Below, piece by piece: positions 34,177-48,935 of a stretch of 64,000 bases of DNA. The translations under genes and the position numbers were made by a program. Positions within the stretch are counted from its first letter, which is position 1, and every line of letters begins with the position of its first letter. The stretch is taken from contig NZ_CP141606.1 in the NCBI RefSeq assembly GCF_035593345.1, positions 2,852,001 to 2,916,000 of the forward strand. Direction: 5' to 3'. Source of the stretch: Lelliottia sp. JS-SCA-14. GTDB lineage: Bacteria; Pseudomonadota; Gammaproteobacteria; Enterobacterales; Enterobacteriaceae. The notes beneath the pieces are model-generated. The model did not search any database and was not told the origin of the DNA. It worked only from the letters and a program-made list of their open reading frames with translations.

Positions 34177-34180
34177 AGAA

Positions 34181-34487
34181 AAAAAGGCCCCTGTTGAAAT
34201 TGCAGGGGCCTGGTACAAGCAAGCATCATATTGGGCGACATGATGCGCGGTAAAAATCGCTGCTACACGTGAAACTGCTCAATCATTGATTTCATTACCG
34301 CAACCGACTCTCCATCTACCCCGTAGCGGGAGTACTCATCCGCTTCGGCATCTGTCGACATTGACAATCCTGTGTTGCGATAGCGCATAGGCGAAGGCGT
34401 CCACTTGCCTGCCGAACTGTGAAGCTCTTCTACCCCTGCGTTTAAAAACGTTTCCAGATTGCTGGCGCGGACTCCCGCACCTGCCAT
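34181..34487 (-). ncRNA. micL: MicL (RyeF) sRNA, from within cutC to its terminator
   Basis: In E. coli MicL is a sigma-E-dependent RNA of about 307 nt started inside cutC and processed to an 80-nt 3' form that represses lpp. Here a sigma-E-like promoter inside cutC has -35 GGAACTA (34521..34515) and, after 16 nt, TTCCAAT; start at about 34487 gives a 307-nt transcript to the terminator. The 3' part contains TTACCGCGC just after the cutC stop, complementary to the lpp segment GCGCGGUAA. Length, promoter and target match agree; the exact 5' end is inferred. Confidence 0.85.
34185..34211 (-). terminator. Terminator of cutC and MicL
   Basis: A 9-bp GC-rich stem AGGCCCCTG/CAGGGGCCT followed on the minus strand by seven T residues. 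It ends both the cutC mRNA and MicL. Confidence 0.9.
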
Positions 34488-35006
34488 TATTATTGGAACA
34501 CCAGAATGCGCTTTTAGTTCCATAATTAATTGCAGTCCTTTTTCAGCGCTCGACTGCTGGCCGGATGTCAGGATGCGCGCCACGCCCAGTTCTGCCAGAT
34601 TTTCAAAGGCTTGAATCGGATCTTTACACATATCAAACGCACGATGAAAAGTCACCGCCATCCCTTTTGCCGCCGCCATAATCTGGCGCATACGCGGCAT
34701 ATCGACGTTACCCTCTTCATCGAGCAGGCCGATCACAAGACCCGGGAAGCCCAGTTCGCGAACACATGTCACATCTTCCAGCATGGCGTCAAATTCACCC
34801 GCCGAGTAACAAAAGTCTCCGCCGCGCGGGCGAATAATCGGGTGGACGGGAATGGTCACCGCCTCGCGGACAGATTTCAGCACGCCGTATGACGGCGTCA
34901 GACCGCCCTCTTTCGGCGCGGCGCACAGTTCAACGCGATCGGCCCCGTTTTGTTGCGCCGTGACAGCACATTCCATGCTGTAACAACAGATCTCCAGTAG
35001 CGCCAC
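34263..35006 (-). CDS. cutC: CutC family protein
   Basis: A 247-residue TIM-barrel protein starting [20 protein letters not shown] with the conserved block [17 protein letters not shown] and VTFHRAFDM. It was named for copper sensitivity, but in E. coli that phenotype has been traced to the MicL RNA encoded in its 3' part; the protein's own function is unknown. The terminal third also serves as MicL template, which may constrain its codons. Confidence 0.96.
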
Positions 35007-35890: not shown

Positions 35891-37624
35891 GTGAATATTC
35901 AGGCTCTTCTCTCCGAAAAAGTCAGTCAGGCACTGATTGCCGCAGGTGCTCCTGCGGATTGCGAACCGCAGGTTCGTCAGTCAGCAAAAGTACAGTTTGG
36001 CGACTATCAGGCTAATGGCGTGATGGCAGTGGCTAAAAAACTGGGCATGCCGCCGCGACAACTCGCTGAGCTGGTGCTGACTCATCTGGATCTCAACGGC
36101 ATTGCCAGTAAAGTTGAGATTGCAGGCCCGGGCTTTATCAACATTTTCCTCGACCCGGCCTTCCTCGCCGGTCACATCGACGCGGCACTGAAATCTGACC
36201 GTCTGGGCGTGTCCCAGCCGCAAGCGCAAACCGTCGTTATCGATTACTCTGCGCCAAACGTGGCGAAAGAGATGCACGTCGGTCACCTGCGCTCCACCAT
36301 CATCGGTGATGCCGCGGTGCGCACCCTGGAATTCCTCGGCCATAAAGTGATTCGTGCCAACCACGTCGGCGACTGGGGTACACAGTTCGGCATGCTGATT
36401 GCGTATCTTGAAAAGCAGCAGCAGGAAAACGCGGGCGAAATGGCGCTGGCCGACCTCGAAGGTTTCTACCGTGAAGCCAAAAAACATTACGACGAAGATG
36501 AAGTCTTCGCCGAGCGCGCGCGCAGCTACGTCGTAAAACTGCAGGGTGGCGACGCCTACTTCCGCGAAATGTGGCGCAAGCTGGTCGACATCACCATGTC
36601 TCAGAACCAGTTAACCTATGACCGTCTGAACGTTACCCTGACCCGCGACGACGTGATGGGCGAGAGTCTCTACAACCCAATGCTGCCGGGCATCGTGGCC
36701 GATCTGAAAGCCAAAAAACTGGCGGTGGAGAGCGAAGGCGCAACGGTGGTGTTCCTTGATGAGTACAAAAACAAGGAAGGCGAACCGATGGGCGTGATCA
36801 TCCAGAAAAAGGATGGCGGCTATCTCTACACCACCACCGATATCGCCTGCGCGAAATATCGCTACGAAACCCTGCATGCGGACCGCGTGCTGTACTACAT
36901 CGACTCCCGTCAGCATCAGCACCTGATGCAGGCGTGGACCATCGTACGTAAAGCCGGTTACGTGCCTGATTCCGTGCCGCTGGAACACCACATGTTCGGC
37001 ATGATGCTGGGTAAAGACGGTAAGCCGTTCAAAACCCGCGCCGGTGGCACCGTGAAACTTTCCGACCTGCTGGATGAAGCGCTGGAACGTGCGCGTCGTC
37101 TGGTCGCTGAGAAGAACCCGGATATGCCAGCCGACGAGCTGGAAAAACTGGCGACAGCGGTGGGTATCGGTGCGGTGAAATACGCGGATCTCTCCAAGAA
37201 CCGTACCACCGACTACATCTTCGACTGGGACAACATGTTGGCCTTCGAAGGCAATACCGCGCCGTACATGCAATATGCCTACACCCGCGTGCTGTCCGTG
37301 TTCCGTAAAGCCGACATCGACGAAAGCGCGCTGGCGAATGCGACCGTAGTGATCAACGAAGATCGCGAAGCGCAGCTGGCCGCCCGTCTGCTGCAGTTCG
37401 AAGAGACGCTGGCGGTGGTCGCGCGCGAAGGCACGCCGCACGTGATGTGTGCGTACCTGTACGATCTGGCCGGTCTGTTCTCTGGTTTCTACGAGCATTG
37501 CCCGATTCTCTCCGCCGAAAGCGAAGAAATTCGCAACAGCCGCCTGAAACTGGCACAGCTGACCGCGAAGACGCTGAAGCTGGGGCTGGATACCCTCGGG
37601 ATCGAAACCGTAGAACGTATGTAA
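35891..37624 (+). CDS. argS: Arginyl-tRNA synthetase
   Basis: A 577-residue class I synthetase. N-terminal additional domain, HIGH-type signature [15 protein letters not shown] (about residues 122-136), the [13 protein letters not shown] region that replaces a canonical KMSKS, and the C-terminal DALR anticodon-binding domain. Starts with GTG, as in E. coli, where the length is the same. The 238-bp region upstream to yecM shows no further gene. Confidence 0.98.
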
Positions 37625-37659
37625 AAACAAACCCGGCGATGGCTTAATGCCAGTCAGTT

Positions 37660-37695
37660 AAGCAAAATAATGAGTTTAAATTCATTATTTTGCTT
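37660..37695. terminator. Perfect 14-bp hairpin after argS, probable terminator
   Basis: AAGCAAAATAATGA and TCATTATTTTGCTT pair perfectly around an 8-nt loop, 35 bp after argS. There is no T tract after the stem (GCCCC follows), so termination is not certain; it may instead protect the 3' end of the message. Confidence 0.5.
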
Positions 37696-37711
37696 GCCCC
37701 AGGACCTTTAT

Positions 37712-38288
37712 GGCATCAGTGGAATTGTTCCGTTCACTTTCGTTCCTCTGCTTCCGGTCCATCTCTCTGCGGTGAACGTGCCAGGGTGGCTCAATCGCCA
37801 CCACCCTGGCAACCCCGGCTCCCGGCAAAGAAAATCGCCGCTTCGCGGTGCCCTCAGCTTATTCCTTGCGGCTATCGGGTCGGGCGCGATCCTGCATCCA
37901 TGCAGGTCGCACCCTCTCGGCGCTTCCCTGCGCCTCGACCCGGCCTCCAGGAAACGCTTCGGCGATTTTCAGCCGGACTCACGTTCCCTCAACCTTTTCA
38001 GCCGTCTGAATGTGGCACCGGTGTGGGTCCCCGCTGAAATCGGCGAACCGAAGGCCGGATGACAAGGGCTGGACGCCAGGGATGGCGGCCAGAGGCGAAA
38101 CGAGACAGGAAGTCGAGTCGAGCCGACCGCAGGCAGATGGCCGGGAGGTGAGCGCAGTGCGAAGCACCGATTTCATGGCGGGGCGCGGGGATTGCAAAGG
38201 GGGCCGCGTAGCCCCCTTTGCACGTTCACAGGTTGTGACGCGATTATATTCTGCTGAACATAAGGTGAACGGAACAACCTCAGATGCT
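37712..38288. repeat. Hairpin-rich non-coding element with imperfect terminal inverted repeats
   Basis: About 577 bp between argS and the yhf cluster. The ends are inverted repeats sharing TTGTTCCGTTCAC (37725-37737 and complement at 38265-38277) within roughly 33-bp arms (37712-37745 and 38256-38288). Inside are strong dyads: GCCAGGGTGG/CCACCCTGGC (37780-37810), GCGATCCTGCAT/ATGCAGGTCGC (37886-37910), a 21-bp imperfect repeat pair at 37958-37978 and 38027-38047, and an 11-bp perfect stem GCAAAGGGGGC/GCCCCCTTTGC (38194-38221). Open frames inside have no ribosome binding site and protein-like character is lacking. Best described as a non-autonomous (MITE-like) or structured-RNA repeat; not identified by name. 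Confidence 0.65.
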
Positions 38289-38323
38289 TCACTGACCAGC
38301 ATTAGGCGATGGCCGGTTTTTTT

Positions 38324-38378
38324 GTAAGCGCAGCGCCACCGGGGAAAATGCCTGATGGCGCTTCGCTTATCAGGCCTA
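38324..38378. repeat. REP-type direct repeat, copy 1 (3' side of yhf cluster)
   Basis: A 55-bp sequence (GTAAGCGCAGCGCCACCGGG through CTTATCAGGCCTA) identical to 45977-46031 in the same orientation. It contains two REP palindromes. Its last three bases, read on the minus strand, are the TAG stop codon of yhfS. Confidence 0.9.
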
Positions 38379-39461
38379 CAGGTCTCTGCAACTTTCCCGC
38401 AAAATGCGCAGTACCGTCTCAGCCCCACTGCGATTCGGGTTGATGCGGATCATGCGCTGGGAAAGCGTGGGGTCGGACTGGCGAAACGTCCCGGAAAGCC
38501 GGTAAAACAGCGGCGGAATTTCATATTTCGATTCAGCTCCAACCGGGTAAGGCAGCGCCCCCAGCTGATGGGCACGGGCCAGCACTTTCTCCGCAATCGG
38601 CTGATGAAACTCCACCAGCAGCACTTTGGACTGCGCGTTCGCTATCATCGCCTGCTTCACCTGCGGGATCGCCCCGCTTTGCAGTGCCGCCACCACACGA
38701 TCATTTACCAGCGCTTGCACCGCGTGCATCACGGGCGCGAAAACTAACCCGCGCAGGACCTCCATCGCCTGAACGCCCTGAACCTGGCTGCCACCGGAGT
38801 ACATGCTTTGGCGCACGCGGCTCACGGCATTTTCGTCACCCACAACCACCCCCACTCCCGCCGGGCCAAAGAGCTTGAAGCTCGAGAAGGTGGACAGGCC
38901 AGAGCCGCACTCGCAGCCGATCTTCTCAACCTTCATCACCGCGTAGTTATCGTCCGTCAGCGAGGGAATGCCGTAATGATTCAGGCAGGCGATGACGTCC
39001 TCCAGGGAGTAGGCATCGTCCATTTTCTGGCGCGTATGCTGGATCAGCGCCGCCTGCGGGCGGTGTGCCTCAATCGCTTTCGCCACCTCATCAAGCTGAT
39101 TGAAATCGGCACGAATCAGGCGAAGGCCCATCTGTTCAACAATCACCGCCGTGGTCGGGTAAACCGGCGCATCGTGGATCAACAGCGTCTCCCCCGCTTT
39201 GAGCAAAGCCGCGAGGCCGCTTCGAATCGCGCCCGTCCCCGCCCCCTGCACCAGCGCCGCTTTAGGCGCATTAAAAAAATCAGCGATGACGGCTTCGATC
39301 CGCTGGGTCATCTGCGGCTGGTTAAGCCCCGGAACCAGACCCAAATCTCCGCCGCTGAGGAAATCGCTTCCCGGAAAATGACGGCAGATAATATCCACCA
39401 GCTGAAACTGTTTTTGCTGCGCCTGTTCCATGGTCAGGCTCTGCAAAGGCCAGGTATTCAT
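38376..39461 (-). CDS. yhfS: YhfS, fold-type I PLP-dependent aminotransferase-like protein
   Basis: A 361-residue PLP enzyme of the aspartate aminotransferase fold. The PLP-lysine is probably in STFSSFKLFGPAG, with the Asp contact in SLTDDNYAVMKVEKIG and LVQGAGTGAIRSGLAAL binding the cofactor phosphate. The start at 39461 has GGAGTGAACCT before it and gives the E. coli length; a longer frame upstream is not supported. Last gene of the yhf cluster; its stop codon comes from the REP repeat. Substrate unknown. Confidence 0.92.
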   Translation of the reverse strand: MNTWPLQSLTMEQAQQKQFQLVDIICRHFPGSDFLSGGDLGLVPGLNQPQMTQRIEAVIADFFNAPKAALVQGAGTGAIRSGLAALLKAGETLLIHDAPVYPTTAVIVEQMGLRLIRADFNQLDEVAKAIEAHRPQAALIQHTRQKMDDAYSLEDVIACLNHYGIPSLTDDNYAVMKVEKIGCECGSGLSTFSSFKLFGPAGVGVVVGDENAVSRVRQSMYSGGSQVQGVQAMEVLRGLVFAPVMHAVQALVNDRVVAALQSGAIPQVKQAMIANAQSKVLLVEFHQPIAEKVLARAHQLGALPYPVGAESKYEIPPLFYRLSGTFRQSDPTLSQRMIRINPNRSGAETVLRILRESCRDL

Positions 39462-39511
39462 AGGTTCACTCCATGAAGACCTGCCGCCGAAGCAGCAGGT
39501 TTCGCAAGGGA

Positions 39512-40816
39512 TCAGGCCGGAACGAACAGCCCGCACCAGAAGAGAATGTTGAGCACAATCCCGGTGATTAATACCGCCACCACCGGAGACGCCATCTTCT
39601 GAACCGGACGACCCAGAGATTCGTTCAGGAAGTAAAGCGCCGCCGCGATGGTAAAGCCGGTGTAACCGGCCATTTTGATGGCTGCAAAGATAGACCCGAC
39701 CAGCAGCGCCATCTCCATCAGCATGTTCATCGCATTACGGATATTGTCCGACGCGTTACGCACCGACGGGTAACGGCCCAGCCATTTGCCAATCGAGCGC
39801 AGGAGCAGCACTTCGGCAGAGATGATCAGCGCCCCCACCACAAAGGCAATCAGCGGATTGGCGATCAAATAACCTGCCGCAAACACAAAGGTAAAGCCCG
39901 CAACAGCATAAACGCCGGTCGCCAGCGCCGTAGTGGCAATCATCGGCACGAAGCCCAGACCGCGCATGAATTCTGCCAGCGCCGCCTGATTGATCAGGGT
40001 CTGAGATTGCGCCGGATCGAGTCCTGCATGGTAGGCTTTTTCAAGGGTGAAAATGGAGACTTCGGAACCGGCGAAGATCTTCATGCTGGCCACGGCAGCA
40101 ATCAGCCCGCCGACGATGGCAATATACGGCAGGTTCTTAATGATCCGCGAGGTTCGTTCTTCAAACACTGACAGCCCGGCGTCGTCATGTTCACGCTCCC
40201 CGCGGGTACGGTGATCCTGAGTAATCGCGATGCCTAACAGCATCACCATCCCCACGAAAATCTCTATGGATTCCGGGTTCAGGTGCGGGAAGTAGCGCAC
40301 GATAATCACGCGAGTCATCAGCACCACAAACGCGGCGAAGAGGCTGTTTTTCCAGCCGAACTGATAGAAAATCGCCACCAGCGGGAACAGCGCAAAGGCC
40401 GACACCACCGGCGAGCTCAGTTCGCCCAGCGAGCCCAGCACGTCAACCGGAAGCGCCGTCAGCAGATGGTTCACCGGCAGCAGACAGGTGAGGATCAGCA
40501 CGCCCCAGACTGCGCCGAGCCCAAAAGCCAGCGCGCCGTTAAAGGCCAGCACGCCAATAATGTCCGTCGGCAAGAACAGCAGCCAGGTGTTCAGCAGCCC
40601 GGTTTTCAGGGTGAATGAGATGCCCACGGACGCCACAAAACCGATGCTCAGACCGAACGCGATACTCCCCGCTTCGCGGCGGTTCATATTGCCTTCGATG
40701 AGCTGCGGCAGGATCGGGCGGATACCGTCGTGGAAGACCGCCGCAGATTTGTGCGCCAGCAGCGCCGTCATCCCGGTGAGGCAAGCCACGACTAAAATTT
40801 GAATATAGAAATCCAT
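39512..40816 (-). CDS. yhfT: YhfT, polytopic membrane protein, probable transporter
   Basis: A 434-residue protein with about twelve hydrophobic segments, starting MDFYIQILVVACLTGMTALL and ending LFWCGLFVPA. Belongs to the YhfT family; no transported substrate is known. It sits between yhfU (10-nt gap) and yhfS, suggesting it imports the compound processed by the other yhf products. Confidence 0.92.
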   Translation of the reverse strand: MDFYIQILVVACLTGMTALLAHKSAAVFHDGIRPILPQLIEGNMNRREAGSIAFGLSIGFVASVGISFTLKTGLLNTWLLFLPTDIIGVLAFNGALAFGLGAVWGVLILTCLLPVNHLLTALPVDVLGSLGELSSPVVSAFALFPLVAIFYQFGWKNSLFAAFVVLMTRVIIVRYFPHLNPESIEIFVGMVMLLGIAITQDHRTRGEREHDDAGLSVFEERTSRIIKNLPYIAIVGGLIAAVASMKIFAGSEVSIFTLEKAYHAGLDPAQSQTLINQAALAEFMRGLGFVPMIATTALATGVYAVAGFTFVFAAGYLIANPLIAFVVGALIISAEVLLLRSIGKWLGRYPSVRNASDNIRNAMNMLMEMALLVGSIFAAIKMAGYTGFTIAAALYFLNESLGRPVQKMASPVVAVLITGIVLNILFWCGLFVPA

Positions 40817-40826
40817 AGCGCGGCCT

Positions 40827-41180
40827 CTATTTTAAATGCGCAATCAGCATCGGGATGGCGTGTTCGATATGCTCTACCGACAGGCCAAAGGCGACTTTGC
40901 CGTCCGCCACCATTTTGGCGACCTGATCTTCCTTCGCCTTAATGCCGGGTTTGGCGATAGTGCCGCTTTTGTTGTAGCCAATCACCGCAATCGCAATGGA
41001 TAACGCCGCGCCAGCACCGGTATTACAGGCACCGATGTAGTAGTCGAGCTGGCCGGATTTCACCTTCATCGCGGCTTCCATATCGTTATAAATAAACACC
41101 TCAAAGCAGCCAGGCGCGGCGGATTCGATGGTCTTTTTCATCAGTTCGCGCTGTAAGCCAGCAACACCGATCTTTTTCAT
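40827..41180 (-). CDS. yhfU: YhfU, DUF2620 small cytoplasmic protein
   Basis: A 117-residue DUF2620 protein with an alpha/beta look: KKIGVAGLQRELMKKTIES, then DYYIGACNTGAGAALSIAIA, a Gly/Ala-rich loop with one Cys. The small size and position directly upstream of the membrane protein YhfT suggest a partner subunit, but no PTS EIIB-type N-terminal cysteine loop is seen. Function unknown. Confidence 0.9.
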   Translation of the reverse strand: MKKIGVAGLQRELMKKTIESAAPGCFEVFIYNDMEAAMKVKSGQLDYYIGACNTGAGAALSIAIAVIGYNKSGTIAKPGIKAKEDQVAKMVADGKVAFGLSVEHIEHAIPMLIAHLK

Positions 41181-41189
41181 GGGAGATCC

Positions 41190-42080
41190 TTATTTAAAGA
41201 AGACAGAGGGGTTATCACGTAACATCAAATCAATGTCGGCCTGGGTAAAACCGGCCTCGCGCAACAGAGGCACAAAGGTGGTCAGCAGATAGCCAAAGCC
41301 GGGGCCGCCGTTCGCTTTCAGATGCGAGCGTCGGGTGATATCCATGGAGAGCATCACATGCCCGAGCAGGCCGCGGCGAGCAATCTCGACCAGCATCGCC
41401 ACGCGCTTTTCGTCCGGGTAGTAGTTGTTTTTGCCGATGGTATCGAACTGAACAAAAGCCCCCTGATCGATCATCCGCAGGATGTTGTCGAGGTTGTCTT
41501 TCAGGTCGCAGTGCCCGATGACCACGCGGGAGAGATCCACGCCGTGGCTTTTCAGCAGCGCCAGTTGCTCAAGGCCCATGGTGCTGAATGAGGTGTGTGT
41601 GGAGATGGGGCGGCCCGTTTCCCGGTGCGCGATTGCCGCGGCGGCAAACACTTTGGCCTCAATCGGGGTGATGACATCCACGCTCGAGCCAATTTCCGCA
41701 ATGATCCCGGCTTTCAGTTCGGTGCCGTCAATACCGAGGGTGATCTCGTTGATCATCTCTTGTGCCAGGGCCTCTACCGGCGTGGTCGCAACGTGGGCCG
41801 GGAAAAAATCATGCTGGTAATAACCGGTGCAGGCGACCACGTTCATCCCCGTATCGCCCATAATATCCAGCATAAACTGCGGGTTACGCCCCATGTAGCG
41901 ATTGGTCATCTCAATGATGTTGCGCACGCCCTGAGTGTAGAGCGTCTTCATCTCCGCACAAATCAACGCATACTGATCCAGGCGGCAGTCGATGTTGTTT
42001 TTGAACGAGGACAAATCGATATGCAGATGTTCGTGGGCATAGGTATAGCCCGACGCATCAAAACGAATCTGTTCAGCCAT
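41190..42080 (-). CDS. php: Phosphotriesterase homology protein
   Basis: A 296-residue amidohydrolase-fold protein of the phosphotriesterase family. The first metal pair is in [11 protein letters not shown], further ligands in [11 protein letters not shown] and [10 protein letters not shown]; the glutamate in [10 protein letters not shown] takes the place of the carboxylated lysine bridge. E. coli Php lacks clear phosphotriesterase activity; lactonase or other ester/phosphoester activity is possible. Overlaps yhfW by 8 nt. Confidence 0.94.
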
Positions 42081-43308
42081 GATGGCCTCCGTTGTCAGTC
42101 ATATGTAGCGAAGCGAGGAATGACGTGCCGTTTTGCGGCGCGGCGGCGTGGAAAAAGTCACAGACCGTGGCCCCTACGTCAGAGAGGGTTTTCCTCGCCC
42201 CCAGTTGCGCAGGCGCTATGCCCGGCTGCCAGACCAGCAGAGGGACCTTTTCACGCGTGTGTTTGCTGTGGCCGATCGTCGGGTCATTGCCGTGATCGGC
42301 CATCACCACCAGACAGTCCCCGAGTTGCATGGCCTCCATCAGGCGCTCAAGATTGCTGTCCACCAGCTGCAAGCGGTCGGCGTAGCGCGCCACGTCCTGG
42401 GCGTGTCCGGCGAGATCGGTTTCCTGAATATTGGTGCAGATAAAGGCATCACCCGGCTGGCACACTTCATCGAGCGTGATGTCCAGAATGCGCTGGCTGT
42501 CGACCAGATTCTGGTAACTCACGCCGTGCGGGTTGATGGCGATATCCGCCACTTTGCCGACCAGCACGGTTTTGATGCCTGCCTCGTGCAGCTTTTGTGG
42601 AACCTGAACGCTGGCATTCACGCCGTAGCCCATGTGCACGACCTGAAAACCGTTGTTATATACACCCGAACGCGGGGCGTTAATCCCGATATAAACGCCC
42701 TGTTTTTCTTCCACGGCGTCCAGGATCTGCTGGCTGCTTTCCAGCAGGCCGCCAAAGGCGATCACGCGCCCCACTTGCACCTGGCGGCGAACGATCTCGC
42801 CGATGGTGCGGACTTCCTCAAAGGAGATATCCGTGAGATTGGCGCTGATGTTAAACACCTGCCCCAGATCCGCCTCGAGGTTGTCACCAATCGCCACCGC
42901 CTGGTTCACCCACAGAAATTGCAGCCCCTCTCCCCGGCGTTCGACCTGCCAGCAATCGGCGATCAGCGCCTGTTCAACCTCATCAATTACCGTGGAAAAA
43001 GGCATTCGCAGCGGCGATTTGGGAAGCGTACCGAGGATCTCCTGATGACCCATGAAAGTGTCGCCCCCTTCGTGCTGCAACGCCGCGGTGCCATAAACCG
43101 CACTCGCTGATGGCTTCATCACGCCCACGTCCTGCCCAAGCGCATTCATCAGGCCAAGCTTCTCCAGCACGGGTAAACGAAGCCGGGGGAAATGCTGCAA
43201 AATGTGCCCGCAGGTGTTGGCCCCGATATCCTGCGGCCTGACCTGCGGCACATCGTCCATTGCCCCGACGCCAAAACTGTCTATCACCACCACCACAAAC
43301 TTACTCAT
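42073..43308 (-). CDS. yhfW: YhfW, phosphopentomutase-like metalloenzyme
   Basis: A 411-residue alkaline-phosphatase superfamily protein similar to phosphopentomutase (DeoB). Metal sites are visible in [31 protein letters not shown] and [19 protein letters not shown]; the phosphorylated Thr region is GANTCGHIL. The start at 43308 has GGAGG and matches homologues; the frame extends further upstream. Overlaps yhfX and php by 8 nt each. Its sugar phosphate is unknown. Confidence 0.92.
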
Positions 43309-44476
43309 TGCCACCTCCTGACACCGGGTTGCCGAGACTGTCATACACGGCTTCCAGCACCGGCGCGCCGCGGGAGATCCCGGACACCAGCGCTACATCG
43401 CTGCGTGTGACGAAAATTTGCGTGCGAAAACACATCACCACCGGACTGCCGACCGGGAACTCACCGGCCAGCGGAATGTGATAATCAATGCTGCTCTCAT
43501 CCATGGGCAGCAGGCTGGCGGGAATGCCGGTGTGGCCCTGAAGCGGATAAACCAGCGCGTTCTGCGCATGCCCGCGCCGATAGTACCCGCCGCCGAAGCA
43601 GTAGCTGTTGCCCTGAAAATGGTGAGAAACTTCCGTGAGATAGAGCATGGCGATGCGCTCGGGCTGATCGCCGTGCTGGTTCGCCGGAATGGTGCCCGTC
43701 AGGGCGTGGCCTGGCTCCGCATGCGTCACGCCAAAACTGGCCAGCAGCGCAAGGGTGCTACAGCTCGAGGCCGATGGCGCATTCAGTTGCTCAAGTTCAA
43801 CACCCTGGGCGAGCAGACGATCGCGGGCCTTCAGCAGAGTGTGTAAGTTGGGCGTAGGCAGGGTTTGCTGCTGCTCGTCATCCCACAGCAGGCAGGGAAA
43901 ATGCGTCAGCCCCGCCAGTTTCACCCCGGCAAGCGAGCGGATCACTGGTACCACTTCATCCAGCACCGCGAGCGAAAAACCGGCTTCCTGACCCGGATAA
44001 AGCCTGTCCTGTGGGTCGAACACTTTTAGCATGATGGGCTGAACGCGTCCGTTCTCCAGCGCCGCAGCCGAAATCTCCCGCGCCTTTTCCAGTGAGAACA
44101 CGGTGATCATCTCGACCGGCGCGAGGACGTTTTCCGTTATCTGGCTTTTCGGGATCTGCACCAGATGGCCCACGTGCGAGACTGGCACGTCAGCCTTACG
44201 CAGGGTGCGAGCCTCTTTAAAATCCACCGCTACGGTGCCGTGGAAACCGAGTTCAATCAGCTTTTGTGCCAGCCACGGGTTGCGCCCGAGCTGCTTGGTC
44301 ATCAGATAGAGCGTGATGCCGTGCCGGGCTGCGGTCTCGAGCAGGAGACGGCCATTCTCCATCACCCGATCGACGTCGATAACCCAGGTATCCGGCAGGA
44401 TGGCTCCCTGCCGCCATAATTCACACGCGGCCTCTATCAGCGCCGGGTTCTGTGCCTTAAGTGCTCCAGTAAACAT
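43301..44476 (-). CDS. yhfX: YhfX, alanine racemase-like PLP enzyme
   Basis: A 391-residue protein with an alanine-racemase-type N-terminal barrel. The candidate PLP lysine is in [16 protein letters not shown], with [10 protein letters not shown] and [16 protein letters not shown] further on. Start at 44476 ([17 protein letters not shown]) matches E. coli; an in-frame ATG 21 nt upstream is less likely. It is unlikely to be the housekeeping racemase. The role in the yhf pathway is unknown. Confidence 0.91.
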
Positions 44477-44569
44477 GCCCTTGCCTCTCGACTCCATGCA
44501 GATGATAACAACTTAAATCATCATTTTTTTGAATATTTAATGCGTAGACGCTGGTTCCTGACGCACCGT

Positions 44570-44926
44570 TTAGCCTTTGCTGGCCATCCACAAACTAAAG
44601 AGATTCGCCAGCAGGTAGCCTTCCTCGTTGGGATGGAGCCGGACATCGAACGGCGCGAGCACCGCCTGGTGTACAGACTCGACCTGCGGCCAGATGTCAC
44701 AGCTTTGCATTTCGTCCAGAATACCCGCGTCCAGCGGACCAATCTCCTCGCCACGGCGGCTGCGCATCAGCGCATTCGCCATATGGGTGATCGCCATCTC
44801 GCCCTGCTCGTTGTGCACGGAAATGGCCCATACCGTTTCGAGCTGCGTGACGACACCTGACATGCCGTCACAGATATCCTTATCAATGATCCCCGCCTGA
44901 CACAGCAGGTTGAGCCTCTCTTCCAT
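44570..44926 (-). CDS. yhfY: YhfY, PRD-domain protein
   Basis: A 118-residue protein consisting of one PTS-regulation-type domain (PRD), with conserved His in MAITHMANALMRSRRGEEI and RLHPNEEGYLLANLF. PRDs are usually phosphorylated by PTS proteins to control regulators; a free-standing PRD next to the regulator YhfZ suggests a signalling role, which is inference. 93 nt separate it from yhfX. Confidence 0.9.
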   Translation of the reverse strand: MEERLNLLCQAGIIDKDICDGMSGVVTQLETVWAISVHNEQGEMAITHMANALMRSRRGEEIGPLDAGILDEMQSCDIWPQVESVHQAVLAPFDVRLHPNEEGYLLANLFSLWMASKG

Positions 44927-44950
44927 CGCCTTACCTCATTTAATCAACAC

Positions 44951-45853
44951 TCAATAACTGGGTTCTTGTTCGCCCACCAGAACGCGCTGCTGATGAGCCA
45001 GTAATGCAGATTTGTTCACCACCGTGCGCAGTAGCTGCTGGATGGGGATGTCGTCCACCCGCGTCAACACCACCGCTTCCGAGGCATCTTCAAAACGCGG
45101 GTCGCCTTTCAGAGGCTGCGCCACCAGCCCGTGGGTATCGAGTTCGATCTCGTTCGCGACGTTCCAGATCACCGCGTCGATATCTCCTTTGACGATCCGG
45201 GCGAGACACTCGTGATACGGCACATCGAGCAGCTCGACGGATTGCCCGGCGAAATACACATCCGTCATGATGCGCTGGTCGGCAGAGCGCGGGTCGAGAC
45301 CCACCCGTTTGATCTGTTGCGCACCCGCGCGGCAAATCAGCTTGTGCTCGCCCACATAGGTATGGAGGCCGAGTTCCAGGGCCATGTGCACATCCCCTCT
45401 GTCGACATAGCTTTGCGCCGCCAGGCGAGAGACCACCGCCAGATCGTAAACGCCGTTGAGCAGGCACTCCACGCGGACATCTGAACCCCGCATGTGGGCG
45501 TAGTAAAACGGGATGCCGTCGAACTGCGCTTTCAGCCCGCTGGCCAGCCCTTCATACAGTCGGGTATAGGGCAGCGGCATCGCACAGACGACGTTGCCGA
45601 TATCGGCGAAATCCAGTAACAGTTTGTGGTCCATGTTGACCAGAAAGCTGCCGTTACGCCCACGGCGTTCCACCGCTACTGCTCCGGCGCTTTCAAGGGT
45701 TTTTAACGCCGCCTGGATCAGGCCGACGGAAAACCCGCACTCGCCGGCCAGTTCGTCAATGGTCTTCAGACGGTTCCCGGTTTTTTCGCCGAGTAAATAG
45801 CGCGCCAGGCTGTTCTGCGCGACGCCCTCTTTCTTGATAAAGTTACGGCTCAT
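44951..45853 (-). CDS. yhfZ: YhfZ, winged-helix regulator with substrate-binding-like domain
   Basis: A 300-residue protein. The first 70 residues form a GntR-like helix-turn-helix (KTIDELAGECGFSVGLIQAAL, then KTLESAGAVAVERRGRNGSF); the rest resembles a periplasmic-binding-protein-type sensor domain. It is the first gene of the yhf cluster and probably its regulator; two similar inverted repeats lie just upstream of its start codon and are candidate operators. Confidence 0.91.
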   Translation of the reverse strand: MSRNFIKKEGVAQNSLARYLLGEKTGNRLKTIDELAGECGFSVGLIQAALKTLESAGAVAVERRGRNGSFLVNMDHKLLLDFADIGNVVCAMPLPYTRLYEGLASGLKAQFDGIPFYYAHMRGSDVRVECLLNGVYDLAVVSRLAAQSYVDRGDVHMALELGLHTYVGEHKLICRAGAQQIKRVGLDPRSADQRIMTDVYFAGQSVELLDVPYHECLARIVKGDIDAVIWNVANEIELDTHGLVAQPLKGDPRFEDASEAVVLTRVDDIPIQQLLRTVVNKSALLAHQQRVLVGEQEPSY

Positions 45854-45861
45854 TATTTATC

Positions 45862-45899
45862 TTCATTTTATTGAATGGTTATATCTTCATTAAAATGAA
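45862..45899. promoter_or_regulatory. Tandem inverted repeats upstream of yhfZ, candidate YhfZ operators
   Basis: TTCATTTTATTGAA (45862-45875, one mismatch) and TTCATTAAAATGAA (45886-45899, perfect) are two related TTCATT-N2-AATGAA dyads, start-to-start distance 24 bp, right before the yhfZ start. Position and pairing suggest an autoregulatory operator; no consensus for YhfZ is known to me. Confidence 0.55.
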
Positions 45900-45965
45900 C
45901 ATAAATGGCAAATGCGGAAGATGGAAAGGGAGAAGATCATCACAAAATGATGTGAGGGCCAGGTT

Positions 45966-46031
45966 TTGTAGCCCCGGTAAGCGCAGCGCCACCGGGGAAA
46001 ATGCCTGATGGCGCTTCGCTTATCAGGCCTA
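45966..46031. repeat. REP pair, direct repeat copy 2 (5' side of yhf cluster)
   Basis: A REP pair TGTAGCCCCGGTAAGCGCAG, GCCACCGGGG, then GCCTGATGGCGCTTCGCTTA, TCAGGCCTA. Bases 45977-46031 are identical to 38324-38378. Copy 1 lacks the 9 bp that complete the left REP arm here. It fills the gap between the end of rhiN and the yhfZ promoter. Confidence 0.9.
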
Positions 46032-46049
46032 TAAAAGCACAAAATATAA

Positions 46050-47189
46050 TTAGAAATACTTCCGCAGATATTCCGTCAGGCACAAAATCGCCATCGCCTG
46101 GCCGTACGGCATGGAGGTCAGCGGGATCTGGCGATAAAACTCCAGATCGCTGCCCATCCCGGTGCCGAACGAGGTTTGCAGTAACTCCCCTTCCGGCGAG
46201 ATGTTTTTCACGATGCCGCGAATCGCCTTCTCTGCCACTTCCGCGTATTCCGCGCTGACGTAACGCTTACGCACAGCTTTCAGAATTCCGTAGGCAAAAC
46301 CGGCCGTTGCCGACGCTTCCAGATACGAATCTGGATCGTCGAGCAGCGTATGCCACAGGCCGCTTTCGTCCTGACAGGTTGCCAGCGCGGCAATCTGCGC
46401 GTTCAGCACCTGCACCAGATAGCGGCGCACGGCGTTGTTTTCCGGCAGATCCACCAGCTCGAGGAAATCCGGGATAACGATCGTCAGCCAGCTGTTGCCG
46501 CGCGCCCAACGGGCTTTCGCAAAGTTGTGCTGCCCGTCGTAGTTCCAGCCGTGGAACCACAGGCCGGTTTCCCGATCCATCAGATTCTGCACGTGCAGCA
46601 GGAACTGATAGACAGCCTCTTCCACGTACTCCGGGCGGTTGAGCAGCTTGCCGATTTTTGCCAGCGGCAGAACCGTCATCATCAGCGTGTCATCCCACAT
46701 CTGCTGATGATTCTCTTCGGCCAGCGTAATGTGCTGCATCCCACCGTGCGTCGTGCGCGGCATGTCGTTCATCGCCCACTCCGCCCAGCTCTCCAGCCAC
46801 GGCAGCCAGGTGGCGTTTTTCGTCTCTTCATAGCGACAGGCCAGCGTCAGGAACGGGGCCATGGTGTTGACGTTTTTGGTAGTCGCGCCTTCGGCAAAGC
46901 GGTCGGCAAACCAGCCGTCGATGATGTCACGCATCTCGCTCGCGCCGGTCTGGCAGTAATACTGCCAGATACCGTACAACCCGACGCCGTGCGTCCACTC
47001 CCATCCCGCCCAGCCTTTGGTGTCGATCACCCGCCCGTCGTCCAGTCGCAGCAAAAATTCGCCGGTTTTATCGTGAATGTTCACCAGATTGTGCGTCACC
47101 TTTTCAATCAGTGATTTCAGTTCATCCCTGGCAATAAAGTGCTCAGGCTGACGCAGTAGCGGGCTATGTTTGACAGGCCAAACCTTCAT
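46050..47189 (-). CDS. rhiN: Unsaturated rhamnogalacturonyl hydrolase (GH105)
   Basis: A 379-residue alpha/alpha-barrel hydrolase of family GH105 (YteR/RhiN). It removes the unsaturated galacturonyl unit from rhamnogalacturonan lyase products in the cytoplasm. The likely catalytic Asp is in QMWDDTLMM (about residue 165), and WARGNSWLTI and WEWTHGVGLYG are conserved. It follows rhiT by 4 nt, forming a rhiT-rhiN operon as in plant-associated enterobacteria. The products feed hexuronate breakdown to KDPG. Confidence 0.92.
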   Translation of the reverse strand: MKVWPVKHSPLLRQPEHFIARDELKSLIEKVTHNLVNIHDKTGEFLLRLDDGRVIDTKGWAGWEWTHGVGLYGIWQYYCQTGASEMRDIIDGWFADRFAEGATTKNVNTMAPFLTLACRYEETKNATWLPWLESWAEWAMNDMPRTTHGGMQHITLAEENHQQMWDDTLMMTVLPLAKIGKLLNRPEYVEEAVYQFLLHVQNLMDRETGLWFHGWNYDGQHNFAKARWARGNSWLTIVIPDFLELVDLPENNAVRRYLVQVLNAQIAALATCQDESGLWHTLLDDPDSYLEASATAGFAYGILKAVRKRYVSAEYAEVAEKAIRGIVKNISPEGELLQTSFGTGMGSDLEFYRQIPLTSMPYGQAMAILCLTEYLRKYF

Positions 47190-47193
47190 AATC

Positions 47194-48777
47194 TTAACCT
47201 CTGTGATATGTCGAATTCAGTACCGCGCGATCCTTCAGGGAAGGTGCCGCCGGTTTGTTGCGATTCAGGTAACCAATGTTGTTGTTGCCCCACAGGGATT
47301 CGTACGGCATCCCGGCCAGCAGTTCGACGGTGGCGCGGGCCTGCGGCGTCGCGGTTTCCGGCATCGCACGGCCAGACTCGCGCATTTTGGCGGTCTCTTC
47401 CCGCAGGGTGCTGTGGGTGTGTAAGTTCAGTTTGAAGCGCAGGGAGACCAGGAAGCCGCAGATCAGCACCAGAATGGTGCCCACGCTCAGGATCATCAGA
47501 ATGGTGTGGCTCACTTCCGCAGGCTGGACTTTCTGCCCGCTGACAAAGCCGGACATCTGCATCACAATCCCGACCAGCATGATGGCACCCGCCTGCGAGG
47601 CTTTACGCGTCAGGGTCATGATCCCGGCGAAAATCCCTTCGCGACGTTGACCGGTGATGACTTCATCCACGTCGGCAATGTAGGTGTAGATGTTCCACGG
47701 CACATAGTTGATACCGCCGCGCCCCAGGCCGGCAACCGCAGAGATCAGCAGCAACAGAGAGTAAACGTCGCTCAGCCCGGCATAGTAGAGCATCGCGTAG
47801 GAGAGCGAGGCCAGCCCAAACAGCACGACGACCATGCGATAAGACGGAGCCGGTCCGAAGCGGATGCAGAGCGGGATCATGGCGATAACGGCGATGAACT
47901 GGAAGATCGCCATCGTGCCCAGCAGATTCGAAGCCATCGACGCTTCCTGCATCAGGACGAACACCACGTAGTAGGTAAACACGGCGTTGAACACGTCCTG
48001 CGCAATGTAGCCCCCGAGGTACATCCCCAGATGCTGGCGGAAAATCTTCACCCGCAGGGTGGAGCTTAATTCAACGAACAGACGGTTCAGACTCTGACTG
48101 AGGTTGAGTTTTTTCTTCTCCTCTTCGGCACGCAGCGCCGCTTCCGACCACTCTTCCCGTGGACGTTCCCAGGTGAAGATCCACACAAACGTGAGCATCA
48201 TCGCGCACAGCACCGAGAAGACCAGGCTCGCGTAGAAGAACGAGATAGCGTTGTCTTTCCCGAAGTGGGTCAGCAGAATGCCCGGCAGGAAGGAGGCCAG
48301 AATCGCTGACATCTGCGCCATGGAGATGCGCGCCCCGGAGAATTTGGTTTTCTGTTTGAAATCGTCGGTCATTTCCGGGACTAAGGTTTCGTACGGCACC
48401 AGAATCATGGTGTAGACGATGTCGAAGATCAGATAGGTGACCAGGTAATACCAGAAGCCCATGTCTCCGACCCACATCATCGAGTAGCTAAAGACGCAGG
48501 GAATACCGAGCAGGATAAAGAACTTACGGCGGCCAAAGCGTTTGCCGAGCCAGGTGGTGCCGAAGTTATCGGTCAGGAAGCCCATCAGCGGGCTGACGAC
48601 CGCGTCCAGCACCCTGGCGGCGGCGAAGATAAAGGTCGCCTCAATCGGCGAGAGTCCACAGAAGGTGGTATAAAAATATAACAGCCAGGCCGCCGTCAGC
48701 GCGGTGGTCCCTGCCCCAAGGAAATCGCCCGACCCGTAGGCCAGGTAATTTGCGAGTCCAATTTTACGTGTTTTCAT
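47194..48777 (-). CDS. rhiT: GPH-family rhamnogalacturonide transporter
   Basis: A 527-residue cation symporter of the glycoside-pentoside-hexuronide family with about twelve membrane segments: AYGSGDFLGAGTTALTAAWL at the N-terminus, the family block VSPLMGFLTDNFGTTWLGKR, and a longer hydrophilic C-terminal tail. Placed first in an operon with rhiN, it is best read as RhiT, importer of rhamnogalacturonan oligosaccharides. Start 48777 chosen by homologue alignment (MKTRKIGLANYLAYG). A KdgR-type box lies 158 bp upstream. Confidence 0.86.
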   Translation of the reverse strand: MKTRKIGLANYLAYGSGDFLGAGTTALTAAWLLYFYTTFCGLSPIEATFIFAAARVLDAVVSPLMGFLTDNFGTTWLGKRFGRRKFFILLGIPCVFSYSMMWVGDMGFWYYLVTYLIFDIVYTMILVPYETLVPEMTDDFKQKTKFSGARISMAQMSAILASFLPGILLTHFGKDNAISFFYASLVFSVLCAMMLTFVWIFTWERPREEWSEAALRAEEEKKKLNLSQSLNRLFVELSSTLRVKIFRQHLGMYLGGYIAQDVFNAVFTYYVVFVLMQEASMASNLLGTMAIFQFIAVIAMIPLCIRFGPAPSYRMVVVLFGLASLSYAMLYYAGLSDVYSLLLLISAVAGLGRGGINYVPWNIYTYIADVDEVITGQRREGIFAGIMTLTRKASQAGAIMLVGIVMQMSGFVSGQKVQPAEVSHTILMILSVGTILVLICGFLVSLRFKLNLHTHSTLREETAKMRESGRAMPETATPQARATVELLAGMPYESLWGNNNIGYLNRNKPAAPSLKDRAVLNSTYHRG

Positions 48778-48935
48778 TGCCGTCAACCCTTTCAGTGTTG
48801 GGAGACTCCCCCTCATCCGGGAGTTTTTACACGGCTACAGTAAAAGCATCGTCATATTGATACCTTTCTGTTTCTGCCACCGCGCAAGGGCAAATGGCAA
48901 TAATGCAAAGAGATTCCATACGCGTGTCACTGATT

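Follow-up and report, generated by a model that had tools for sequence, protein, structure and literature searches.

What is the hairpin-rich stretch downstream of argS in Lelliottia sp. JS-SCA-14? In the window (the whole stretch of 64,000 nucleotides of contig NZ_CP141606.1 that was analyzed), a preliminary description had marked a 577-bp segment at 37712..38288 with inverted repeats, internal dyads and no credible gene, and had proposed either a non-autonomous mobile element or a structured non-coding RNA. The name argS of the upstream gene was taken from that description and from general knowledge, and presumably is correct. The segment was found to be the inner part of a non-autonomous IS4-type element that is aimed at terminators and carries repeats of the TRIP1 family, which is a known kind of element in a new variant. 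Very probably, it is a 660-bp transposon with IS4 ends which would be moved in trans by an IS4-subgroup transposase, is centered on the axes of terminator hairpins and holds an inverted L/R pair of folded units. The features are listed in Table 1.

Table 1. Features of the element and its surroundings (window coordinates).
Feature	Position	Strand	Basis and remarks
argS	35891..37624	+	577-aa ORF; terminator hit by the element
Split argS terminator, left arm	37633..37644	+	holds the left target duplication; terminator intact in 10/11 relatives examined
Left target-site duplication GGCGATGGCT	37635..37644	.	9/10 bases as in the right copy
Element, non-autonomous, IS4-type ends	37645..38304	+	660 bp; copy alignment, TIR pattern search, duplications
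Left terminal inverted repeat (TIR) TAATGCCAGTCAGTTAAGCA	37645..37664	+	20/20 identical to one K-12 IS4 end
A+T-rich palindrome GCAAAATAATGAGTTTAAATTCATTATTTTGC	37662..37693	+	missing in some copies
Left folded unit (L type)	37725..37985 (approximate limits)	+	TRIP1 match, fold
Outward end of left unit TTGTTCCGTTCAC	37725..37737	+	inverted-repeat search; left TIR of the preliminary description
Hairpin b, left unit	37891..37906	-	fold, loop count; loop AUGGA on - strand
Hairpin c, left unit	37919..37934	-	fold, loop count; loop AGGGA on - strand
Right folded unit (R type)	38011..38277 (approximate limits)	-	inverted, homologous to left unit; fold
Hairpin c', right unit	38069..38092	+	fold, loop count; loop AGGGAT on + strand
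Hairpin b', right unit	38103..38115	+	fold, loop count; loop with AGGA on + strand; extra-arm site
Outward end of right unit GTGAACGGAACAA	38265..38277	-	inverted-repeat search; right TIR of the preliminary description
Right terminal inverted repeat TAATGCTGGTCAGTGAAGCA (inward reading)	38285..38304	-	TIR pattern search
Right target-site duplication GGCGATGGCC	38305..38314	.	10 bp
Split argS terminator, right arm with T run (38317-38323)	38305..38323	+	sequence

Ends and Extent of the Element

The inverted-repeat search recovered the repeats described before (TTGTTCCGTTCACTTT and AAGGTGAACGGAACAA, 16 nt, 94%). Four further inverted-repeat pairs lie inside the element, and the sixth listed pair falls outside. 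The ends had to be revised. TTGTTCCGTTCAC is subterminal and not a transposition end, and in the alignment of the copies the similarity extends past 37712..38288, out to TAATGCCAGTCAGTTAAGCA at the left end and to the inverted counterpart of this sequence at the right end. Both ends are flanked by a target duplication of 10 bp (GGCGATGGCY).

The absence of a credible gene was confirmed. The ORFs of at least 80 aa in the element overlap each other, are 105-149 aa in length and lie in several frames, and the ORF list held no single-ORF DDE/YREK transposase inside the element. Since it has no transposase ORF, the element is regarded as an IS4 derivative and not as an IS. Over the element, no Rfam family reached its gathering score; the best match at a relaxed threshold had 25.5 bits (cut-off 43; E 0.17).

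The location between argS and a cluster of ORFs on the opposite strand would also suit a mere boundary or scar of the neighboring 11-kb insertion. This is next to impossible, as the element has TIRs and a target duplication of its own, the same element occurs at many unrelated loci, and two relatives carry part of the right flank at an argS locus that is free of the element (L139 and L141). The cluster itself consists of long ORFs of the - strand (38376-48816), located between argS and genes that we presume to be of flagellar type; it corresponds to the 11-kb insertion of the preliminary description.

Copies in the Genome and in Other Genomes

The search of the own genome with the stretch 37600-38400 resulted in at least 76 matches (best 40 of 224 candidates scored), many of which cover only the short right-flank repeat (query positions 725-792) or short palindromes of the interior. 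When the pieces were merged, at least 24 places were found to carry related repeats, which is incompatible with a single-copy sequence. Near-full-length copies are 90-96% identical to the argS copy. The TIR pattern TAATGCYRGTCAGTTAAGCA was identified, with up to three mismatches, at 23 places of the own genome vs. 2 for the reversed control; these hits form nine pairs spaced by the length of the element, and five of them are single ends. The ends are common to the copies, and all nine both-ended copies are flanked by target duplications of 10-14 bp (one of 14 bp), four of them perfect and five with one mismatch. Six further loci (L007, L008, L009, L016, L032, L078) were left out of this scoring, since the pattern gave one end or none. 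Judged by eye, a perfect 12-bp duplication is present at L032 and one with two mismatches at L078, and both resemble the hairpin-centered sites described below.

Six own copies (L012, L015, L017, L018, L027, L029) are longer in the loop of hairpin b' (window 38110-38114) by an additional arm of about 80 bp, which consists of several small hairpins and whose sequence was observed in L105. Older copies that have no recognizable ends (e.g., L011, L017, L018, L029) lie approximately 10-55 bases from the ends of flanking ORFs.

The mobile-element alternative of the preliminary description is backed by the terminal repeats, the target duplications, the copies and the empty sites. Presence in multiple copies, TIRs, target duplications and the lack of a gene, by which MITEs are recognized, were all found, and a transposase that is presumably encoded elsewhere would be a further likeness to the bacterial MITEs. 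The element differs from these in its two large conserved folds and in going to terminator axes.

Matches to the element were obtained in 57 of 60 genomes of the genus. For the right-end pattern, the named matches are confined to Lelliottia sp. V86_10 (six stretches), and the flanks of all six correspond to copies in the analyzed genomes. For E. coli, 5375 of 5426 genomes match at 1-9 places each, and the matches listed all fall into the left half of the element. With strict filters, a covariance model built on the L-type core had matches at E 0.001 in 17 of the 247 genomes that represent the order; 11 of these belong to the same family and the other 6 to four further families (best of these 6: E 2e-9). 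The element had no match in 50,697 phage records at E 1e-5. Among the 72,556 records of the plasmid collection 23 match, several of which are of chromosome size and therefore probably mislabelled; one such record is NZ_CP141089.1 (4.9 Mb).

Relationship to IS4

The K-12 IS4 (L064, 1426 bp) has one end that is identical to TAATGCCAGTCAGTTAAGCA in 20 of 20 positions, and its other end starts with TAATGCCGATCAGTTAAGGA. The ends of the element fit the pattern -AATR--------WTW---- given for the IS4 subgroup in PMC2266710 (Table 1, section 6), and the duplications fit the 10-13 bp stated there, save for the one own copy at 14 bp. IS4 relatives are moreover found at the same kind of target (see below). 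In contrast to IS4, which encodes a transposase within its 1426 bp, the 660-bp element has no transposase gene and contains two folded repeat units.

A transposase with the same TIRs had been suggested as a partner. This was answered in part: the IS4 end is identical, whereas no homologue of InsG, the K-12 IS4 protein, was found in the own genome, nor was one present in the second genome of the species. In the genus, the InsG query matched 7 of 61 genomes, for the most part by fragments (in G204 the match is near-complete, with 94%), and in the family it matched 48 of 295. A partner therefore seems to be absent here now and may be present nearby, and the element should at present be immobile in its own genome, unless another transposase serves it.

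For the comparison of target sites, 16 loci with IS4 relatives were scanned, of which 11 showed both ends by pattern; one of these (L112) adjoins the edge of a contig and is not counted among the ten testable ones. Eight of the ten have duplications of 11-13 bp, and the other two (L111, L121) have no duplication but lie in hairpins. Some of the IS4 relatives carry damaged genes.

Insertion at Terminator Hairpins

At argS, the element is inserted at the very axis of the terminator. Among the argS loci of the genus (40 genomes searched), 10 of the 11 fetched have an intact terminator with a T run, e.g., AAAACCCGGCGCAAGCCGGGTTTT, and no element; the eleventh relative has a different hairpin. In order to describe this position at the other copies, the empty sites were rebuilt and the hairpin center was compared with the center of the duplication. 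The distance was at most 0.5 bp in 8 of 9 own copies, the exception being L013 (8.5 bp), and within 0.5 bp for both elements of other genomes (L075, L081). The same holds for 7 of the 8 IS4 relatives with a duplication; the remaining site (L117) has no hairpin (dG -3.0). The mean folding energy of the 22 rebuilt sites was -16.1 kcal/mol, including L112 as a contig-edge artefact scored 0, compared to -8.3 kcal/mol in random 42-nt windows of the same loci, of which 2.6% reach the observed median. On visual inspection, the K-12 IS4 itself does not lie in an obvious terminator. An IS4 insertion is known from the pheST attenuator. In the titles and opening lines of abstracts of the papers listed, no description of IS4 aiming at terminator axes was found.

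The 90 unit-bearing loci are located between convergent (54), codirectional (33) and divergent (3) ORFs, whereby these counts are rough because genes were called by ORF length and the loci are partly orthologous.

In the proposed mechanism, an IS4-subgroup transposase acting in trans would move the element, and its insertion would be centered on the dyad axis of an intrinsic-terminator hairpin. Thereby 10-14 bp of the hairpin would be duplicated and half a terminator would be left on each side. Since the insides form an inverted homologous pair (L and R units), the structure predicted for a read-through transcript is a single long hairpin, which would bring both terminator halves together beside the T run. 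In the predicted read-through fold of the argS copy, 37633-37644 pairs with 38305-38316, adjoining the T run. A simple terminator scan of 37600-38400 detected no terminator-like site and thus gives no support for a working split terminator. Terminator function may nevertheless survive the insertion, and the inverted design may be retained for that reason. It becomes testable whether the IS4 transposase reads terminator hairpins and whether a giant inverted repeat inside a terminator leaves the latter undestroyed.

The Folded Units and Their Relationship to TRIP1

The left unit and the inverted right unit are 72% identical over 88 nt (E 6e-8, two-sequence search). Window positions 37784-37969 match the TRIP1a and TRIP1c stretches of K-12 as given in PMC10888264 with 75% over 187 nt (E 4e-31). 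The right unit showed no significant match to TRIP1a from the same source (best E 0.7). Judged by its sequence and by these published stretches, the left unit is related to TRIP1 of E. coli. The element was therefore only in part rightly called undescribed, as its left half has this relative.

According to the consulted part of PMC10888264, TRIP1 is present in 96% of 6725 E. coli genomes at five loci, has a predicted "double-Y" fold and has no known function; the repeats go back to Rudd (1999), as cited there. The element shares with TRIP1 the homologous left unit, a strong predicted fold and sites downstream of genes. While TRIP1 in E. coli occupies five fixed loci, for which that part of the paper gives no mobility mechanism, the element has an inverted R partner, IS4-type ends with target duplications, terminator sites and many copies. 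L and R units were each also found alone or in arrays in other genomes. Many of these units, like the E. coli TRIP1, have no IS4 ends, and hence IS4 does not explain the whole family. Three subjects that are otherwise treated apart in the consulted literature meet in this element: transposons of the IS4 group, the use of intrinsic terminators as landing sites, and TRIP1. The last of these is, as far as the consulted text of PMC10888264 goes, a repeat of E. coli without known function or spreading mechanism. As relatives of TRIP1 exist in many genomes and share a conserved fold with marked loops, a function of TRIP1 can now be tested.

At E 0.01, the K-12 ryfA stretch did not match the units, which speaks against an identity with RyfA/PAIR. 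Clean empty sites of single units were not obtained in E. coli, where the strains differ at proX-ygaY and sstT-alx by a replaced stretch and not by a clean insertion.

Alternating arrays of L and R units were observed at three loci, with the orders L+R-L+R- (L095), R+L-R+L-L- (L096) and R+L-R+ (L050). At two E. coli loci, aqpZ-lysO and dusC-yohP, IS110-family elements are located in the same hairpin loop of a TRIP1 unit (L151 near 600, L069 near 1610 and 2990; strains MMC-J-0091 and CFIAFB20120266). Their right junctions (ATCC) agree, and the left junction is visible in L069 only. In their organization, the units resemble REP/BIME arrays, which likewise consist of folded intergenic units, sometimes alternating, lie near gene ends and are entered by IS110-family elements; the L/R units differ from them by their length of about 260 nt. 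A parallel to the IS110-family elements in the TRIP1 loop is IS621 in REP, as cited in the consulted part of PMC10888264.

Conservation of the Fold

For the analysis of the fold, 76 L-type units were found, of which 52 were kept after length and similarity filters and 49 were folded; A1 denotes a subset of 43 of these sequences (6 of 49 left out). For the R type, L094, L101 and L105 were left out and 36 sequences were folded. In the 43 L-type sequences, 93.2% of the cells pair compared to 84.2% in shuffles, whereby the structure was derived from the same, related sequences and the controls flatter the fold somewhat. Changes on both sides were found at 28 of 50 pairs, a number reached in 0 of 500 shuffles and compared to 5-11 in slid structures. 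The number of double-change cells was 201 vs. at most 40 in the slid versions, which is a large margin, and the evidence for compensatory change is strong. Further pair types (44 vs. 45.4) were not above the shuffles.

The compensatory change in the stems would agree with the second alternative of the preliminary description, a putative structured non-coding RNA. The L and R units could be functional RNAs, transcribed from the strand opposite TTGTTCC and kept for a role at the RNA level, e.g., CsrA binding via GGA loops, with the IS4 ends as one route of spreading. The strand bias agrees with this. On pairs common to the folds of both strands, the ratio of G-U to A-C for the strand opposite TTGTTCC was 72/28 in L (49 sequences) and 28/18 in R (36 sequences), and in A1 it was 38/9 (43 sequences). 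The alifold energy was also lower for this strand in both cleaned alignments (-189.9 vs. -180.7 and -161.1 vs. -150.0). For R, however, the signal is weak and depends on the fold, since the + fold reverses it (68 G-U vs. 51 A-C on the + strand), and in the uncleaned R alignment the strands are alike (-40.6 vs. -40.1). Moreover, wobble pairs are rare on either strand: the favored strand has 38 in 2146 cells (A1) beside the 201 double changes, which is unusual for an RNA gene. One promoter-like site was found vs. 0.3 expected, and single units occur in mixed orientations with respect to codirectional genes. Such an RNA role is unlikely.

The rarity of wobble pairs is explained by maintenance at the DNA level, or by a correction of palindromes, no less well than by an RNA. 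The stems could then be kept by a recombinase acting on cruciforms or single-strand hairpins, or by template-switch correction of palindromes, with no role for an RNA. The double changes with hardly any wobble intermediates point in this direction, as do the alternating arrays, which recall BIMEs, and the entry of IS110-family elements into the unit loop. The asymmetry of G-U and A-C between the strands is not expected of a purely double-strand process, and the loops are conserved while the stems vary. Maintenance at the DNA level is a serious possibility that we would stop short of calling probable.

Two hairpins of each unit type have conserved loops with UCC in the written strand, which reads as GGA in the strand opposite TTGTTCC. 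The motif was identified in 48/49 loops of hairpin b, 49/49 of c, 32/36 of b' and 34/36 of c', i.e., in 163 of 170 loops compared to 2 of 170 in two other loop classes. Over whole units, GGA was not enriched relative to dinucleotide shuffles (8.4 vs. 8.2 in L and 8.2 vs. 9.1 in R), so that the GGA loops are to be seen as a lead and not as a result. Several E. coli units have UUACAGGGAUGU at the GGA loop, which is close to the SELEX consensus of CsrA (RUACARGGAUGU) given in PMC7652899, where the CsrB motifs are given as CAGGA(U/A/C)G in hairpin loops. No CsrB/CsrC family was among the Rfam matches over the window, which argues against an RNA of that kind.

More broadly, the TRIP1-family units might be dispersed protein-binding RNA hairpins, with CsrA as the candidate protein, attached to many enterobacterial genes at their 3' ends, and the terminator-aiming IS4-type ends might be a vehicle for them. 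We consider this quite improbable. If true, a selfish element would set up a network of post-transcriptional control while leaving genes and terminators unbroken. The description of the element as a non-autonomous, terminator-aimed transposon with IS4 ends is the one we prefer.

Among the Rfam matches above the gathering cut-offs, the MicL sRNA and the SraC/SdsR pair were located in the window at 34179-34488 and 1841-1986, respectively.
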